From an uncultured Algoriphagus sp. (lineage in GTDB: Bacteria; Bacteroidota; Bacteroidia; Cytophagales; Cyclobacteriaceae): a stretch of 32,870 bases of DNA. A program made the position numbers and the translations under genes. How positions within the stretch are numbered: the stretch's first letter is position 1; every line of letters begins with the position of its first letter. Under the pieces are notes generated by a model, which saw nothing but the letters and a program-made list of their open reading frames with translations, had not been told where the DNA came from and did no database searches. This document shows, one piece after another, positions 7,221 to 30,202 of the stretch. The stretch covers positions 1-32,870 of the forward strand of contig CAJBER010000219.1 in the NCBI GenBank assembly GCA_903952135.1, in the 5' to 3' direction.

Positions 7221-7889
7221 ATGAACCGATTCACGCTTTTCCTTGGCTGGTTTTTGACCTGCATTAGCTTCACTGCGTGCAGCCAAAAGGCTACTTTACG
7301 CATTTTTGACAAGCCCATCACCTGGAATACCGAACGGGAGCAGCTCTCGCTTAACTACCTCAAGGAGCGCCATGGCTTGGAGCAAACAACCGCTACCATC
7401 AAACCCCAAATGGTGGTGGTACACTGGACGGCCATCTCCAACATCGAAGTGACCTTTGACGTCTTCAACCCAACCACCTTGGGTGGTAGAGCCGACCTCA
7501 CCGGAGCCAGCAACTTGAATGTTTCCAGTCAATTTTTGATCGACCGCGACGGTACCATTTTTCGCCTATTGCCAGAAACCACCTTTGCCAGGCACGTGAT
7601 CGGCCTCAATTACCTCGCTATCGGCATCGAAAATATTGGTAGCGACGACATGCCCCTGACCAAGGCCCAACTGGATGCCAACGAGAAACTGATTCGATAC
7701 CTCAAACGGAAATACGCCATCGAATACGTCATTGGCCACCACGAGTACCAACGCTTCCAAAAAACAGAACTTTGGAAAGAGACGGATCCCAACTACCGTA
7801 CCGTAAAATCAGATCCTGGAGATGCCTTCATGAATCGATTGCGGAAAAATCTGACTGACCTGAACTTAAAACCGCTTCCTCCGCTTTGA
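7221..7889 (+). CDS. N-acetylmuramoyl-L-alanine amidase (Amidase_2), predicted lipoprotein
   Basis: 222 aa; lipobox-like CISFTAC; VVVHWTA, FLIDRDGTIFRLLPE, ARHVIG, IGIENIG, VIGHHEY and KSDPGDAF motifs of zinc amidases. Confidence 0.88.
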   Translation: MNRFTLFLGWFLTCISFTACSQKATLRIFDKPITWNTEREQLSLNYLKERHGLEQTTATIKPQMVVVHWTAISNIEVTFDVFNPTTLGGRADLTGASNLNVSSQFLIDRDGTIFRLLPETTFARHVIGLNYLAIGIENIGSDDMPLTKAQLDANEKLIRYLKRKYAIEYVIGHHEYQRFQKTELWKETDPNYRTVKSDPGDAFMNRLRKNLTDLNLKPLPPL

Positions 7890-7896
7890 TTGCATT

Positions 7897-9510
7897 ATGA
7901 ATCTGGTCCTCAAATTTACCGCAACTTTTCTTCTTTTACTTTCCGTATGGACAGGCAGCTCTGCCCAAGAATTGGATCCTCAAACTCCAAAAACTAGCGC
8001 TACAGAAACCACAAGCAGTGCCTTAGAAAGCAGCGAGGCTTCCTTTGTGACCATTCCCCACAACCTACCCGAAATTCCACGAGAATTTAGAGGCGTTTGG
8101 ATCGCTACTGTAGCCAATATTGACTGGCCACTCTCCCCCACAGATCCTTGGGAAAAACAAAAAAAGGACTACCTCGCGCTTTTGGATTACTACAAAGGGC
8201 TGCATTTCAATGCGGTAATCGTCCAAATTCGTACTGCCGGTGATGCCTTGTACCCTACCAAATTGGCCCCATGGTCCAAGTTCCTAACTGGCCAACAGGG
8301 GACAGCGCCTAAAACCCAGGAAGATCCTTTGACATGGATGATTGATGCCGCTCACCAGCGCGGCTTGGAATTCCATGCCTGGCTCAACCCCTACCGTGCC
8401 ACCATGGACCTCAATACCGCTGCATTAAGTCCAGAACATGACTTCAACACCCATCGAAAGTGGATGCTCAAATACAGCACCAAGTGGTACTACGACCCAG
8501 GTCTACCTGAGGTGAAAGCCCATTTACTCAAAATCATCGACGAAGTAGTCTTAAACTACGACATTGACGCCATCCATTTCGATGACTATTTTTACCCCTA
8601 CCGAGAGCCCAACTTGGAGTTTCCCGACCAAGCTTCTTATGCGGCTTACAAAAAGCCAGGCCAAACCAAAGACGATTGGAGAAGGCAAAATGTGGATGAG
8701 CTAATTCTAGCCCTCAGCCAAACCATCAAAAACAAAAAGCCTTGGGTTCAGTTTGGCATCTCTCCATTTGGGGTGTGGCGCAACAAGAGTAAAGACCCGA
8801 AAGGTTCTCCCACCCAAGCAGGGCAAACCAACTACGACGACCTTTTTGCAGATGTGCTGCTTTGGATGAAAAACAGGTGGATTGATTACCTGATTCCTCA
8901 ACTCTACTGGAGCATGGAGCACCGCCTTGCCTCACACCGCATTTTGGCCGACTGGTGGTCCAATACCAGCTATGGTGTTCCCATTTACCTAGGCAATGGC
9001 CCTTACAAGATTCGAGACGATTCGGATGCCGCTTGGAAAGAGCCCAAGGAACTCATTACGCAAGTGCATTACGGAAGAACCCTGCCTCAAATTCAAGGCA
9101 ATGCCTTTTTTTCGGCCAAATCCATGTACCAAAAGAATCAGGACATCGCCCAACTCCTGAAAAAAGAGGTGTACGATCGTCCGGTATTGCCTCCTGCTTT
9201 TGAACCCAAAACACCCGTACGCATCAGCGCTCCACAGGTCTTGGATCTCAGCATTTCTTCTTCAAAAATCCAACTTCAACTTGAAAAGCAGTTGGACCCT
9301 GCCATCCGCTATGCCCTCGTTCAAGGCAGCAATGACCTGAACAGCATTCATCAGACCACCCTTCACAAGGTATGGGTAGGAAGCAACCAAAAATCCAGTC
9401 TAGATATCCCGCAACTCAATAGCAGCTACCTGGCCATCCGCTGGGTGGATAGCTATGGTAGAGTGATCCAAAGCCAAGTCCTCCAACTCACCAAACCATC
9501 ACGACCATGA
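7897..9510 (+). CDS. GHL10/DUF187 family glycosyl hydrolase (DigH/YddW-like), secreted
   Basis: 537 aa; signal peptide; REFRGVWIATVANIDWP, NAVIVQIRTAGDALYPT, HAWLNPYR, IDAIHFDDYFYPY and FGISPFGVWRN motifs. Confidence 0.9.
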   Translation: MNLVLKFTATFLLLLSVWTGSSAQELDPQTPKTSATETTSSALESSEASFVTIPHNLPEIPREFRGVWIATVANIDWPLSPTDPWEKQKKDYLALLDYYKGLHFNAVIVQIRTAGDALYPTKLAPWSKFLTGQQGTAPKTQEDPLTWMIDAAHQRGLEFHAWLNPYRATMDLNTAALSPEHDFNTHRKWMLKYSTKWYYDPGLPEVKAHLLKIIDEVVLNYDIDAIHFDDYFYPYREPNLEFPDQASYAAYKKPGQTKDDWRRQNVDELILALSQTIKNKKPWVQFGISPFGVWRNKSKDPKGSPTQAGQTNYDDLFADVLLWMKNRWIDYLIPQLYWSMEHRLASHRILADWWSNTSYGVPIYLGNGPYKIRDDSDAAWKEPKELITQVHYGRTLPQIQGNAFFSAKSMYQKNQDIAQLLKKEVYDRPVLPPAFEPKTPVRISAPQVLDLSISSSKIQLQLEKQLDPAIRYALVQGSNDLNSIHQTTLHKVWVGSNQKSSLDIPQLNSSYLAIRWVDSYGRVIQSQVLQLTKPSRP

Positions 9511-9986
9511 AAGACATGCTCGTTCGACTTCTAGAACTTCCTTCAGCCGCAGCACTGGAGCAGCGACTATTAGAGAAGGAAAAAATAGTGGTGCGCAGAG
9601 CGATAGCGCCAGAAAAACACCTAGTGAGCGACTGGGTCATGCAAGCCTTTGGTGCCTATTGGCATTCGGAGGTGGAGGTGGCATTTTCCCGGCAACCCGT
9701 AACTTGTTGGATTGCTCAGCGGGGCAATGCTATTTTGGGTTTTGCCTGCTACGAAAGTACGGCTCGAAATTTTTTTGGTCCTACGGGGACCCTGGAGTCT
9801 GAGCGAGGCAAAGGCATCGGCAAACTACTACTACTCAAATCCCTAGAATCCATGCGAGAAATGGGCTATGCTTATGCCATTATCGGTGGCGTAGGACCAG
9901 CAGAATTCTATGAAAAGGCGGTTGGGGCAAAAGTCATCGAAGGCTCAGAAATCAGCATTTACCAACACTTACTCCGCAAACCATGA
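9507..9986 (+). CDS. GNAT family N-acetyltransferase
   Basis: 159 aa; acetyl-CoA-binding motif ESERGKGIGKLLLLKSLESMREMGYAYAIIGGVGPAEFYEKAVGA. ATGA overlaps with both neighbours. Confidence 0.85.
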   Translation: MKDMLVRLLELPSAAALEQRLLEKEKIVVRRAIAPEKHLVSDWVMQAFGAYWHSEVEVAFSRQPVTCWIAQRGNAILGFACYESTARNFFGPTGTLESERGKGIGKLLLLKSLESMREMGYAYAIIGGVGPAEFYEKAVGAKVIEGSEISIYQHLLRKP

Positions 9987-11248
9987 CCCAAAGTCACTCC
10001 AAAAACCCTTGGTTGTGGGTTCCCACGCTCTACCTCACCGAATCGGTACCTTATGTACTGATTATTTCGGTCTCGGTAGTGATGTATAAAAATCTGGGTA
10101 TCTCCAATGAAGACATTGGATTGTATACTTCCTTTCTCTACTTGCCTTGGGTGATCAAACCTATCTGGAGCCCAATTCTAGAACTCTTTGGCCACAAAAA
10201 GCAATGGTTTTTGAGTATGCAGTTTATCCTATCCCTGGTGTTTTTGGGAGTAGGATTGACTACCGGTAGTTCGCATTTTTTCACGCTTACGCTTGCTTTT
10301 TTTTGGATGGGAGCCTTTGCTTCTGCCACCAACGACATTGCTTCAGATGGCTTGTATTTGATTGCCTTAAAACCCGAGCAACAAAGTTTTTTTGTGGGCA
10401 TGCGCAGCACCTTCTACCGGGTGGGGATGATTACAGGTCAGGGTTTGATCGTGATTGTTGCCGGCTTTTTGGAAGAGAAATTTGCCGACCCTACCCAGGC
10501 CTGGTCTTGGACCATGTTGGGCGTAGGGGGCTTAATGCTCGTACTGACCGGAATCAACTACCTCGCTACGCCAAAAGTGCTGGAGGAACGCATCGCCAAG
10601 GAAGACCAACCCAGTTTTGGGAAGGTGTTTTCCACCTTTTTTACGAAGAAAAATATAGGCCTATCTCTGGGCTTTGTCCTTCTCTACCGCTTGGGAGAAT
10701 CCCAACTCGTGAAGATGGCCTCGCCCTTCTTTTTGGATAAGCGAGCAGCCGGGGGACTGGAATTAAGTACCACCGAGGTGGGATTTATTTACGGAACACT
10801 TGGGGTGATTGCCTTATTAGTTGGCGGGATTTTGGGAGGCATCTTCATCTCCCGAGATGGACTGGGCAAGTGGATGATGCCCATGGCCTTTGCGATCAAT
10901 GCTCCGAATATCGGCTACGTGTTTTTGGCATGGCTTCAACCGGACAACGTCTACTTTGCAGCCTTTGTGGTCGTAATTGAGCAGCTGGGCTATGGTTTTG
11001 GCTTTGCTGCCTTTATGGTGTTTTTGCTGTTTCTGGCAGAAGGAATTTTCAAAACGGCCCATTATGCCCTCGCCACCGGATTTATGGCCATGGGGATGAT
11101 GCTTCCAGGCATGCTCAGTGGCTACGTGCAGCAGTGGCTAGGCTATCCCGGATTTTTCGTTTGGGTGGTGATTGCTACGATTCCAGGATTTGTGATGGCC
11201 TACACGGTGAAGTTTCCGAGGGAGTTTGGGAAGAAGCTGGAGGGCTAA
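9983..11248 (+). CDS. MFS transporter, AmpG-like
   Basis: 421 aa multi-pass membrane protein; YLTESVPYVLI, LGLYTSFLYLPWVIKPIWSP-type start (here IGLYTSFLYLPWVIKPIWSP), ATNDIASDGLYL, FYRVGMITGQG and a second-half GTLGVIALLVGGILGG, as in the AmpG/PAT family. Confidence 0.82.
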   Translation: MTQSHSKNPWLWVPTLYLTESVPYVLIISVSVVMYKNLGISNEDIGLYTSFLYLPWVIKPIWSPILELFGHKKQWFLSMQFILSLVFLGVGLTTGSSHFFTLTLAFFWMGAFASATNDIASDGLYLIALKPEQQSFFVGMRSTFYRVGMITGQGLIVIVAGFLEEKFADPTQAWSWTMLGVGGLMLVLTGINYLATPKVLEERIAKEDQPSFGKVFSTFFTKKNIGLSLGFVLLYRLGESQLVKMASPFFLDKRAAGGLELSTTEVGFIYGTLGVIALLVGGILGGIFISRDGLGKWMMPMAFAINAPNIGYVFLAWLQPDNVYFAAFVVVIEQLGYGFGFAAFMVFLLFLAEGIFKTAHYALATGFMAMGMMLPGMLSGYVQQWLGYPGFFVWVVIATIPGFVMAYTVKFPREFGKKLEG

Positions 11249-11424
11249 GATTCATCATTCGCTACTCAACATTCGATATTCATTATTGATTTATATTCAA
11301 ATGTCGAATGTCCAAGGCTGAATTTCGAATAGCGAGCACTTCGACATTCGCTGCTCAGCATTCATCATTTAAATAATGTCGATAGAAGAAGGATGAATTT
11401 CGAAGAACCTACAACGACACGAAC
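11249..11424. repeat. ATTCG/ATTCATCATT-rich intergenic repeat patch
   Basis: Related near-repeats CATTCGCTACTCAACATTCGATATTCATTA and CATTCGCTGCTCAGCATTCATCATTT, plus partial inverted copies (ATGTCGAATG, GAATTTCGAATAGCGAGC, GATGAATTTCGAAGAA). Confidence 0.6.
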
Positions 11425-12924
11425 ATGAATAAAAATCAAAAAATTGCGCAGCTGTTTTCTCCTGCAGCATTTATTCACGATACGGAAGAAAATTACCAAG
11501 CCATCGAGGCGCTGATTCACGAACAGGAAATCGGGGGGCTGACTTTTTTTCACAGCAGGCATTCTGCAGCGGCTAACTTTGAAAAGCGGGCAGAAGTCCT
11601 GGATGTGAGTGGCACTTTTGAGAAATTGATCGGCTTAATCCATCGCTACCAGAAAGTCTCCAAAACTCCCCTACTCATCAGTATCGATGGGGAATATGGA
11701 TTGGCCATGCGGATCGAAAATACCCCACAATACCCCTTTGCAATTACCCTCGGAGCTTTGAAAAACGATGCGGCAAGATGGGTGGAGGAAGTGGGCTACC
11801 ACATGGGCTTGGACATGAAGCGCTCCGGCATTCACCTCAACCTTGCCCCTTGCGCAGACGTGAATACGAATCCCGACAACCCCGTGATTGGCTACCGCTC
11901 TTTTGGAAATAGCCCCGAAAAAGTATCCCAATTGGCATTTGCAGCCTATTCAGGAATGAAAAATGCGGGCATCGGAGCTTGCTTGAAGCACTTTCCAGGA
12001 CACGGGGATACGGCCACGGACTCGCATCTGGGCTTGCCGATTTTACATAAAAGCAAAGCGGAACTTCAATCCGAAGAGTTGCTGCCTTTTCAATACGGCA
12101 TTGATCGAGGCGTAGAACTGATCATGGTGGGCCACTTGGCGGTGCCTGCCCTCACTGGGGGCAAAAACATTCCCGCAAGCGTCAGCCGCGAATTGATCAC
12201 CGACTTGCTGAAAGGCGAAATGGGATTCAAAGGGCTGGTGATCTCTGATGCGCTGAATATGAAGGCAGTGGCCAATCTGTATCCCGAGCCAGGGGAACTC
12301 GAATGGCAGGCTTTTCATGCGGGCAATGACATCCTATGCTTTTCGGATCACGCGAAAGAGGGCATCGAGAAAATTGCCCAGAAGGCCTCAGATTCAGAGA
12401 TAGATGCTGTTTATGAAAAAGTAATGGGGTTAAAATTCCGCCTAGGCGCTGTAGAAACCCAGCCCATTGCTGTCCCTACTTTTGATTGGGAAAGCCATTC
12501 CCAACTTCAAAAAGACTTGGCCGAAAACTACGTTTCGGTAATCTCAGGGGAACATAATCCTACACAGCTCCAGAAGGTGGCAGCAGCTGGAAAACTGGGA
12601 TACCGAGAATTTTTCTCCACCAGCCCAAGCATCTTTTCCCAAGAGTTGGACCTCTCCTTTGGGTCGATCCAAGAGGCAGAGCAAGTGATTTTGGCCGTAT
12701 TTGTGCCAAGTCACAAGCCCCTCAACCAGTTTGGAATGGAACAAGATATCCTAAATAAAATCCAAAACTTGGCGAAAACCAAGCCTTGCATCCTGGTCCA
12801 TTTTGGCAATCCCTTGGCACTCAAACATCTGGGGGAGCTGTCCGATTTTGATGCAGTGATCTGTGCCTACCAAGGGTTTATTGAGGCCCAAGTTCAGGCT
12901 GCAGTAGTTCTTAAAGGAAGGTAA
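11425..12924 (+). CDS. nagZ: Glycoside hydrolase family 3 beta-N-acetylhexosaminidase (NagZ-like), two-domain, no signal peptide
   Basis: 499 aa; NagZ signature CLKHFPGHGDTATDSHLGLP and VISDALNMKAV; about 130 aa C-terminal GH3-C-like domain. Confidence 0.87.
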   Translation: MNKNQKIAQLFSPAAFIHDTEENYQAIEALIHEQEIGGLTFFHSRHSAAANFEKRAEVLDVSGTFEKLIGLIHRYQKVSKTPLLISIDGEYGLAMRIENTPQYPFAITLGALKNDAARWVEEVGYHMGLDMKRSGIHLNLAPCADVNTNPDNPVIGYRSFGNSPEKVSQLAFAAYSGMKNAGIGACLKHFPGHGDTATDSHLGLPILHKSKAELQSEELLPFQYGIDRGVELIMVGHLAVPALTGGKNIPASVSRELITDLLKGEMGFKGLVISDALNMKAVANLYPEPGELEWQAFHAGNDILCFSDHAKEGIEKIAQKASDSEIDAVYEKVMGLKFRLGAVETQPIAVPTFDWESHSQLQKDLAENYVSVISGEHNPTQLQKVAAAGKLGYREFFSTSPSIFSQELDLSFGSIQEAEQVILAVFVPSHKPLNQFGMEQDILNKIQNLAKTKPCILVHFGNPLALKHLGELSDFDAVICAYQGFIEAQVQAAVVLKGR

Positions 12925-17457: not shown

Positions 17458-19359
17458 TTAAGAATTCGTCCATTGGGTGTGGTAAAACTTCCCGCTTGGA
17501 TCGTCCTTGCGCTGATACGTGTGCGCCCCAAAATAATCGCGCTGGGCCTGAATCACCGATGCTGAAGACTCGGCAGTAATTCGACCTAGCAGGTAGTTGA
17601 TCCCTGCACTCATCACCGGCAAAGCAAACCCATTGGTCACCCCCAAGCCCACCAATTCCGCCAAGGCCTTTCTTCCAGAAATCACCTGTTCTTTCACTCC
17701 CGGGATTTCAAAGAAGGCCACTTGATCTGCATAATTGGCTGAAATTCGCTCCATCAAACCGGATCGGATGATGCAGCCATTGGTCCAGATGCGGGCGATT
17801 TCATTGAAATTCAGTTCCCAGCCTTTGGTGTCTGATACGGTTTTCATCAATCGGAAGCCTACCTCATGATTGATGATTCGAGCCAAGGCATAGGCCTCTT
17901 TGATTTTGGGAAGCCAAGTTTCCAAAGAACCCTCCACCTTTTGAAATTCATGTTGGAAGGTTTTGGAAAATGCTACGCGCATCGCCTTTTCTCCAGACAC
18001 ACCACGCGCATTCACGGCCTCAGCCAATGGACTGTAGGGAATTCCGTACTCCAAGGCAGTGGTTAAGGACCAAGCTCCAGTCCCTTTTTGACCAGCCTGG
18101 TCCAAGATTTTATCGAGCAGCAATTCTCCCCCTTCTTTGAAAAGCAAAAGATCGGCAGTGATTTCCAGCAGGAAGGACTTCAACTCGCCTTTTCCCCAAT
18201 CCGAAAAAATAGCAGATACCTGAGCAGCCGAGCAGCCAAATCCAAAACGGAGGAAGTGAACCAACTCCGCCAAAACCTGCATCTCCCCGTACTCAATCGA
18301 GTTGTGGACCATTTTGATAAAGTGACCGGATCCTCCCGGACCAACGTAGGTCACGCAAGGCTTTCCATCCTTGTCTTTGGCAGAGATTCTGCCCAAGAAA
18401 TCGGCCACCATCGCATAACCTTCCGCATTTCCGCCAGGCATGATGGATGGTCCTTTGCGTGCCCCTTCTTCTCCGCCGGATACCCCCATGGGGAGGAAAT
18501 GCATGCCCACTTCTTTGAGGCGATTGACTCTTCGATCTGAATCGAGGTAGAAGGAATTGCCTCCATCGATCACCAAATCGTCTTTCTCCAAAATCGGAAT
18601 CAAGGCATCCAACTGGGCATCGATCGCAGCGCCCGCAGGAATCATCATCAAAATGCGACGCGGGGTAGCCAAGGAAGCCACAAAAGCTGCAAGGTCCTCA
18701 AATGCAGCCATTTGCGTGAACTCTGGATTTTCTAAGAGCACTTTTTGAGCGATACCCTCCTCCTTACCCGCCACAAATCGGTTGTAAAGAGATACGGAAA
18801 CCCCATTTTCTGCGAGGTTGAGTGCCAAGCTTTTGCCCATCACACCCATACCGATCACCCCCATGTTCATTTTCATGTCCTGCATTTTTAAATAGTGTAG
18901 TGAAACCTCCAACACTTCAGCTGGGGTTCCAGAAATAGCAACCAAATGGCCGACTCGTGGCTGCTCCCAAATGACAAGTTGGGAGTCCAAAAGTCCTGCC
19001 TTCATGTAGTGGTTTTGACGCGCAAGCATCCGTTGCCAGATCAGGTCTCGGTCACCAACCAGGTGGATCCAACGCAAACTTTCGCTCACCTGAAGCTGCT
19101 CCCGGTAGCCGTTTTTAAGTGCCGAACAGGCGAGTACTGCGCCCCCCTTTTCTTCCATCTCCAGCAACTTGGCCGCCAAGCTGGCTAACCAGGGTTGGCG
19201 ATCAGCATCCGTGAGTGGCTCTCCACTGCTCATTTTTTCAATGTTGGCAGGAGGATGAAAGTCATCGGCATCCAAAAAGGGGATTCCCAGTGCCTGAGAC
19301 AAGCCCAATCCTAGGGTAGTTTTCCCTGTACCTGAAACTCCGGTGACCACTACAAGCAT
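17458..19359 (-). CDS. Bifunctional fusion: gluconokinase (N-terminal, about 158 aa) plus decarboxylating 6-phosphogluconate dehydrogenase (C-terminal, about 475 aa)
   Basis: N-terminus MLVVVTGVSGTGKTTLG, FLDADDFHPPANIEKMSSGEPLTDADRQPWL, CSALKNGYREQL (GntK). C-terminus MGVIGMGVMGKSLALNLAENG, GVSGGEEGARKGPSIMPGG, GHFIKMVHNSIEYGEMQ, DYFGAHTYQR (Gnd). The junction at about 18864-18890 was read by hand with no stop codon. Confidence 0.93.
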   Translation of the reverse strand: MLVVVTGVSGTGKTTLGLGLSQALGIPFLDADDFHPPANIEKMSSGEPLTDADRQPWLASLAAKLLEMEEKGGAVLACSALKNGYREQLQVSESLRWIHLVGDRDLIWQRMLARQNHYMKAGLLDSQLVIWEQPRVGHLVAISGTPAEVLEVSLHYLKMQDMKMNMGVIGMGVMGKSLALNLAENGVSVSLYNRFVAGKEEGIAQKVLLENPEFTQMAAFEDLAAFVASLATPRRILMMIPAGAAIDAQLDALIPILEKDDLVIDGGNSFYLDSDRRVNRLKEVGMHFLPMGVSGGEEGARKGPSIMPGGNAEGYAMVADFLGRISAKDKDGKPCVTYVGPGGSGHFIKMVHNSIEYGEMQVLAELVHFLRFGFGCSAAQVSAIFSDWGKGELKSFLLEITADLLLFKEGGELLLDKILDQAGQKGTGAWSLTTALEYGIPYSPLAEAVNARGVSGEKAMRVAFSKTFQHEFQKVEGSLETWLPKIKEAYALARIINHEVGFRLMKTVSDTKGWELNFNEIARIWTNGCIIRSGLMERISANYADQVAFFEIPGVKEQVISGRKALAELVGLGVTNGFALPVMSAGINYLLGRITAESSASVIQAQRDYFGAHTYQRKDDPSGKFYHTQWTNS

Positions 19360-19363
19360 GTGA

Positions 19364-19396
19364 CAAAGGTAACTTTTTGATTTCAACTCTGCACAA
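19364..19396 (-). promoter_or_regulatory. Putative Bacteroidota-type promoter of the gntK-gnd fusion
   Basis: Minus strand TTG (19394-19396), 22 nt, TACCTTTG (19364-19371), ending 4 nt before the ATG at 19359. Confidence 0.4.
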
Positions 19397-19561
19397 TTTG
19401 GTAGCCCTAGGATTTCCATTTTTAGTAGGTGCCCAACCTAAATGAATGAAGTAGGCAAGAAAACCACTCTTCTATTCACAATTCCTTAATGCACTAATTT
19501 TGAGCTGGGTGATTTTTCCAAGAACTGAATCCCTACCTTTGCTGCTCAATTTCAAGTACTC

Positions 19562-30054: not shown

Positions 30055-30104
30055 TTATTTAGTGAAAACACGCGAAAGGGACAAATACACCGTTGCCATT
30101 ACTA

Positions 30105-30202
30105 AAAACCTCGACGGTTTAAGTATTAAAACCTTCGAGGTCTAAAAAGACCTCAAAGGTTGGAGGAACAAAACCTTCGAGGTCTGGAAGACCTCAAAGG
30201 TT
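30105..30202. repeat. Tandem short palindromic elements (AACCTTCGAGGTCT-N3/4-AGACCTCAAAGGTT) plus a degenerate half-copy
   Basis: Copy 1 at 30130-30161, copy 2 at 30172-30202, degenerate arm AACCTCGACGGTTT near 30107-30120. Each full copy has 14-nt arms with one mismatch. Confidence 0.85.

Follow-up and report, generated by a model that had tools for sequence, protein, structure and literature searches.

A five-gene Algoriphagus cluster with an AmpG-like importer, a probable cell-wall sugar salvage locus of the Cyclobacteriaceae

The window analysed here is a stretch of 32,870 nucleotides (nt) from an uncultured Algoriphagus sp., whose draft genome (2.84 Mb, 249 contigs) is ~90% complete. It contains five plus-strand open reading frames (ORFs) that together make a probable locus for the salvage of cell-wall sugars. 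The first is predicted to encode an exported, probably lipoprotein, AmiD-like Amidase_2 (N-acetylmuramoyl-L-alanine amidase; 7221..7889, Pfam 2e-20). It is followed by an exported glycan-strand-cleaving enzyme of the Cwp19/DigH family, extended at its C-terminus by a further segment (7897..9510, GHL10 2e-71), and by a cytoplasmic GNAT related to glucosamine/glucosaminide N-acetyltransferases (9507..9986, Acetyltransf_1 4e-7). An AmpG-like MFS importer (9983..11248, MFS_1 8e-17) and a cytoplasmic GH3 beta-N-acetylglucosaminidase that resembles NagZ and has an additional region at its C-terminus (11425..12924, Glyco_hydro_3 3e-66) complete the set. All five proteins exceed the curated Pfam cut-offs. 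The first junction is 7 nt, the next two are 4-nt overlaps (ATGA), and 176 nt lie upstream of the GH3 gene. This last stretch (11249..11424, no strand) is rich in ATTCATCATT/TTCGA-type repeats, and the corresponding spacer of relatives is mostly shorter. The original prediction, made from the letters alone, had described these genes as a compact peptidoglycan-salvage set; an ORF check bore out its coordinates and spacing, and the N-termini agree with the localisation that it assigned to the amidase, GHL10 and GH3 proteins.

The amidase has a hydrophobic N-terminus with a probable lipobox (FTA-C). It is probably a lipoprotein here, but only about half of its relatives share the lipobox and the remainder carry a plain export signal. 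The Amidase_2 domain scores 73.8 bits against a cut-off of 26 and retains the equivalents of AmpD H34, E116, H154 and D164 (zinc ligands and catalytic Glu). The GHL10 protein starts with a Sec-type signal, and its domain scores 241 bits against a cut-off of 27.9. It had been called DigH-like. The family is correct and the domain is 37% identical to Escherichia coli DigH, but Cwp19 of Clostridioides difficile matches at least as well (2e-98 to the solved domain). The Cwp19 active-site residues listed in PMC5765458 (D195/D196/Y197, R132, Q295/Y297, G328, F367/S368) are conserved, and the motifs FDDYF, NPYR, PQLYW, LGNG and FFSAK are present. Cwp19, a lytic transglycosylase, produces anhydro ends, and reducing ends where the terminal N-acetylmuramic acid (MurNAc) is without peptide (PMC6016235). 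DigH, which likewise has a GHL10 domain, is specific for denuded glycan, and the choice between a muramidase and a glucosaminidase product is not settled (PMC12288456). Unlike Cwp19 and DigH, the Algoriphagus enzyme has no CWB2 wall-binding repeats, carries the extra C-terminal segment and is located in an importer operon. A search of NCBIfam gave no name to the GHL10 protein or to the GNAT.

The best model for the MFS protein is TIGR00901 (AmpG; 2e-50, 171.6 bits), and the four PDB sequences that it matches are all AmpG or muropeptide transporters. Its predicted grouping with AmpG, and not with another substrate family, is therefore upheld. The score is below the TIGR00901 cut-off of 350 bits and identity to E. 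coli AmpG is just 26%, both of which weigh against the salvage reading; because of the cut-off the protein is called AmpG-like. It is the one AmpG-like MFS of the host genome. In the MFS sequence the closest records come from two metagenome-assembled genomes (MAGs) under the names Spirosoma fluviale (97%; the label is probably wrong) and Algoriphagus sp. (93%); Algoriphagus zhangzhouensis is next (80%).

Several variants of the importer were seen in other genomes. Two AmpG-like proteins have an insert of ~190 amino acids (aa) after query residue 168 (L093:8897-10762 and L060:9185-11050), and a third has ~90 aa after residue 253 (L088:8472-10007). The inserts possibly lie in periplasmic loops; that of L093 has no Pfam domain. 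The gene is apparently decaying in two genomes, with fragments and stops in one (G005, L062) and a single in-frame TAG in the other (G014, L030). An AmpG-like gene ~50% identical to that of the window occurs together with GHL10 under betaproteobacterial record titles (Duganella, Roseateles, Oxalobacteraceae and others; L182, L200, L201, L206, L210, L215); MurQ and a kinase of the BadF type are often there too. This looks like horizontal transfer between phyla.

The GH3 protein has no N-terminal signal peptide. Its best PDB match is a GH3 beta-N-acetylglucosaminidase (1e-51), and both the NagZ acid/base loop KHFPGHG...DSH (KHFPGHGDTATDSH) and the Asp nucleophile motif ISDALNM are present. The score for the NCBIfam beta-N-acetylhexosaminidase model is under the cut-off (NF003740, 154 bits vs 207). 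Enzymes for later steps are encoded elsewhere in the host genome: AnmK outside the cluster, MurQ with a kinase-like neighbour on another contig, and NamZ on another contig. That anmK and murQ do not adjoin the cluster counts against the salvage reading. The genome has a second GH3 (G000:C19:638-1582, L108), a 983-aa frame with a signal-like N-terminus that resembles GH3-beta-lactamase fusions flanking AmpG in other lineages.

The clustering recurs well beyond this genome. The MFS was found in 37 of 149 genomes of the family, and 32 family loci, selected by the MFS alone, were read. Within six genes of the MFS these loci have GHL10 (24), GNAT (23), GH3 (23) and the amidase (19). The exact order amidase-GHL10-GNAT-MFS is kept in 18 of the 32, with GH3 next in 14. 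Most of the loci with this order retain the ATGA coupling between GNAT and MFS, and the flanking genes vary. Since gene order is kept across many genera while the flanks change, the adjacency of the cluster is beyond chance. The neighbourhood comparison that had been proposed thus shows an order conserved across the Cyclobacteriaceae. It extends to other families: 21/22 genomes from a single family in the phylum-wide sample have GHL10 within ~300 bp of the MFS (hand count), and among 31 named Flavobacteriales loci, grouped by record title, the MFS has GH3 nearby in 31, GHL10 in 28, AnmK in 24 and MurQ in 11. The proximity of anmK and murQ, which the original prediction had also wanted checked, is therefore found beside the same genes in Flavobacteriales and not in the host genome. 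In Flavobacteriaceae the arrangement is GHL10-MFS-GH3-AnmK, often with MurQ close; in a Saprospiraceae locus it is AnmK-GHL10-(249 aa)-MurQ-GNAT-MFS-GH3. One Muricauda locus has a 645-aa NagB-PIG-L protein upstream of GHL10. The MFS ORFs were searched with HMMER --max, since some of them (L078-L080) escape the default filters.

SusC/SusD-type outer-membrane uptake genes lie directly upstream of the cluster in a Flagellimonas locus (L161:1595-5925) and in another Cyclobacteriaceae genome (L044:14626-19152), a placement that resembles a polysaccharide utilisation locus. The window itself has no SusC/D beside the cluster.

SpoIID acts on denuded glycan, and it is found beside AmpG in other Bacteroidota. 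Up to four genes from the MFS, 80 loci have GHL10 without SpoIID, 21 have SpoIID without GHL10 and 3 have both, counts that include related sequences and some duplicate genomes and so are not independent. No SpoIID was found in the host genome or in any of 19 sampled genomes from its own family and from the GHL10-type family of the class, 18 of which carry the GHL10-type cluster. The six SpoIID-positive genomes in this search had been chosen for a SpoIID already seen beside AmpG and are not an independent test. Judged by gene content and order, GHL10 occupies the place of SpoIID beside AmpG in the Cyclobacteriaceae cluster, so that two unrelated glycan enzymes are found in the same position. 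In Flavobacteriaceae AnmK adjoins GHL10, which suggests that at least some of the GHL10 product bears anhydroMurNAc.

In Tannerella forsythia one operon (Tanf_08345-08385) encodes LytB (SpoIID), AmpG, YbbC (NamZ), MurT, MurK and MurQ (PMC5388701). Like the Algoriphagus cluster it joins an AmpG importer, which in T. forsythia takes up muropeptides and peptide-free disaccharides, to a glycan-strand enzyme, but it is without Amidase_2, GHL10, GNAT and a single-domain NagZ. The Algoriphagus cluster in turn departs from the T. forsythia plan of AmpG with SpoIID, NamZ and murTKQ: its murQ, anmK and NamZ sit elsewhere and GHL10 takes the position of SpoIID. Five Proteiniphilum/Bacteroidales loci (L191, L181, L184, L197, L208) repeat the T. 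forsythia plan, in the order golvesin-C protein (L191) or others, glycosyltransferase, SpoIID, AmpG, NamZ, a protein of ~390 aa, MurK-like and MurQ. An ampG mutant of T. forsythia releases N-acetylglucosamine (GlcNAc)-anhMurNAc and GlcNAc-MurNAc that carry no peptide, and its authors proposed mainly the scavenging of sugar-backbone fragments after amidase action (PMC7670621). A glycan-first salvage route, as predicted originally, is supported by the neighbourhood and by the exported Amidase_2, but its principle is not new for Bacteroidota. The E. coli pathway (AmpG-NagZ-AmpD-AnmK-MurQ) shares the importer family, the GH3 step, the kinase and the etherase. Its genes are scattered, whereas those of Algoriphagus are clustered, and it strips peptides in the cytoplasm via AmpD, whereas the only Amidase_2 of Algoriphagus is exported.

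The site of peptide removal depends on this last difference. A search of the host genome found the cluster amidase as its sole Amidase_2; no AmpD-type Amidase_2 was found in this ~90% complete draft, and other amidase families were not searched. Among 13 more complete cluster-carrying relatives, eight likewise have a single Amidase_2, the one in the cluster. That the only Amidase_2 is exported favours stripping of the stem peptides outside the cytoplasm, before import. Two points weigh on the other side: the remaining relatives own extra Amidase_2 proteins, mostly without signals and of a length unlike AmpD, and the incomplete draft leaves the absence of AmpD unproven. The order of peptide removal and import is thus favoured, not proven.

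The GNAT, to which the original prediction had given no role, is the least expected member of the cluster. A single-sequence PDB search with it gave nothing significant, but a family profile finds GlmA of Clostridium acetobutylicum (5kf1/5kga/5kgh) at 4e-11 and RmNag (4zm6) at 6e-7. An AlphaFold2 model (predicted local distance difference test score 91) was compared with the whole PDB, and ranks 1-7 are all RmNag (4zm6) and GlmA (5kgh), ahead of other GNATs. These two are therefore the nearest solved structures by both profile and fold. Three residues do not vary: W52, which is the sugar-stacking Trp, E55, and Y135 (equivalent to GlmA Tyr297). GlmA is a tandem GNAT with Asp287 and Tyr297; the Algoriphagus protein is a single domain in which Asp287 is replaced by Gly (Pro in tandem relatives), and for these reasons it is named GlmA-related, not GlmA. 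RmNag, from a fungus, combines a GH3 and a glucosamine N-acetyltransferase in a fusion protein, and the acetyltransferase enables the glucosaminidase part to use (GlcN)2; acetyltransferases of this kind in bacteria have been described as restoring the acetyl groups of peptidoglycan fragments before a glucosaminidase cleaves them (PMC4680927). The activities joined in one RmNag chain correspond to two separate genes in the Algoriphagus cluster.

In the phylum sample the MFS is present in all 20 genomes that carry the GNAT, against 126/396 overall (hypergeometric 4e-11), and by genus the figures are 15/15 against 76/171 (2e-6), statistics that ignore shared ancestry. The GNAT is within ~1 kb of the MFS in 8/17 genomes with strong GNAT matches (hand count). 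A tandem form adjoins SpoIID-AmpG in Marinifilum and AmpG in others. An apparent GNAT-AmpG fusion in two loci (L079, L080) was rejected, as it consists of overlapping out-of-frame ORF calls beside a separate tandem GNAT. What is new here is the GNAT as a recurring AmpG partner whose nearest solved relatives are glucosamine N-acetyltransferases.

From the gene content, order and conservation, the catalytic motifs and localisation signals, AnmK and MurQ elsewhere in the genome and no second Amidase_2, we predict the enzymatic activities, the substrate of the importer and the acceptor used by the GNAT as follows. Outside the cytoplasm the amidase would take stem peptides off peptidoglycan or muropeptides. 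GHL10 would then cut the bare glycan, and at least some of the new ends would probably be 1,6-anhydroMurNAc. The AmpG-like MFS would import the peptide-free disaccharides. In the cytoplasm the GNAT would re-N-acetylate those fragments whose glucosamine (GlcN) has no acetyl group, the NagZ-like GH3 would free GlcNAc, and AnmK and MurQ would turn (anhydro)MurNAc into GlcNAc-6-phosphate. We consider it likely that the cluster is the version, found in Cyclobacteriaceae, of a locus with which Bacteroidota salvage cell-wall sugars in this sequence of stripping, cutting, import, (re-acetylation) and splitting.

Other substrates fit the locus poorly. An importer of an unrelated substrate, such as a siderophore of the RhtX/FptX type, with its adjacency accidental, is very improbable: the protein does have a weak TIGR02718 match (47.6 bits), but this is far below the 171.6 bits of TIGR00901 and led us to reject a siderophore-transporter identity, the PDB matches are solely AmpG structures, and peptidoglycan genes recur around the MFS. 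Chitin or chitosan oligosaccharides, imported by the MFS and processed by the GH3 and GNAT, are improbable too, if slightly less so. The fungal fusion RmNag acts on chito-oligosaccharides (PMC4680927) and the best PDB matches of the GH3 are general beta-N-acetylglucosaminidases, but Amidase_2 plays no part in chitin use, and in other lineages AnmK, MurQ, NamZ, SpoIID and a MurK-type kinase are repeatedly found next to the MFS. A stronger competitor confines the enzymes to septal and turnover fragments of the cell's own wall, with no scavenging of foreign peptidoglycan. AmpG-NagZ-AnmK is the classical recycling chain, and the GHL10 relative DigH works on septal denuded glycan (PMC12288456), so that recycling alone has a substantial chance of being right, somewhat short of even. 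The SusC/SusD-type genes upstream of the Flagellimonas L161 and the L044 clusters suggest external import in at least some lineages, and Flavobacterium johnsoniae, of the Cytophaga-Flavobacterium group, was fed by Bacillus cereus peptidoglycan (Peterson 2006, as given in the review PMC6448482). Taken together, these neighbours and this growth favour the scavenging of foreign peptidoglycan at least sometimes.

The role of the GNAT is more evenly contested. An unrelated housekeeping or protein acetyltransferase riding in the operon has perhaps one chance in three: the GlmA catalytic Asp is not kept, several clusters lose the GNAT but keep the remainder, many Flavobacteriaceae clusters are without it, and in about half of the distant GNAT-bearing genomes it is not beside AmpG. 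Opposed to this are the best profile and fold matches, which are both glucosamine N-acetyltransferases, the tandem form beside SpoIID-AmpG or AmpG, and the strong co-occurrence with AmpG. On this evidence the GNAT is probably an integral member of the cluster that acetylates sugars, and its probable action is to re-N-acetylate glucosamine that has been imported, ahead of the NagZ step. A broader proposal, which we hold tentatively and at slightly better odds than the housekeeping role, is that the GNAT is an AmpG-coupled repair enzyme that, once import has taken place, re-acetylates non-reducing-end GlcN to ready it for NagZ and so makes de-N-acetylated, lysozyme-resistant peptidoglycan a substrate for the growth of environmental Bacteroidota, with GHL10 and SpoIID as interchangeable bare-glycan partners of AmpG. 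The peptidoglycan of B. cereus, an example of such a substrate, is rich in free glucosamine.

Two further features of the window lie apart from the cluster. A 653-aa fusion on the minus strand (17458-19419) joins a gluconokinase (~20-158) to a decarboxylating 6-phosphogluconate dehydrogenase (~182-652; Pfam, NCBIfam), and two 40-nt direct repeats, 80% alike, start at 30104 and 30146 (30104-30185, intergenic).

What is known of peptidoglycan recycling in Bacteroidota comes mainly from a single oral pathogen. The cluster supplies candidate genes for growth on peptidoglycan and for peptidoglycan turnover in this phylum, and its GNAT gains a testable role.

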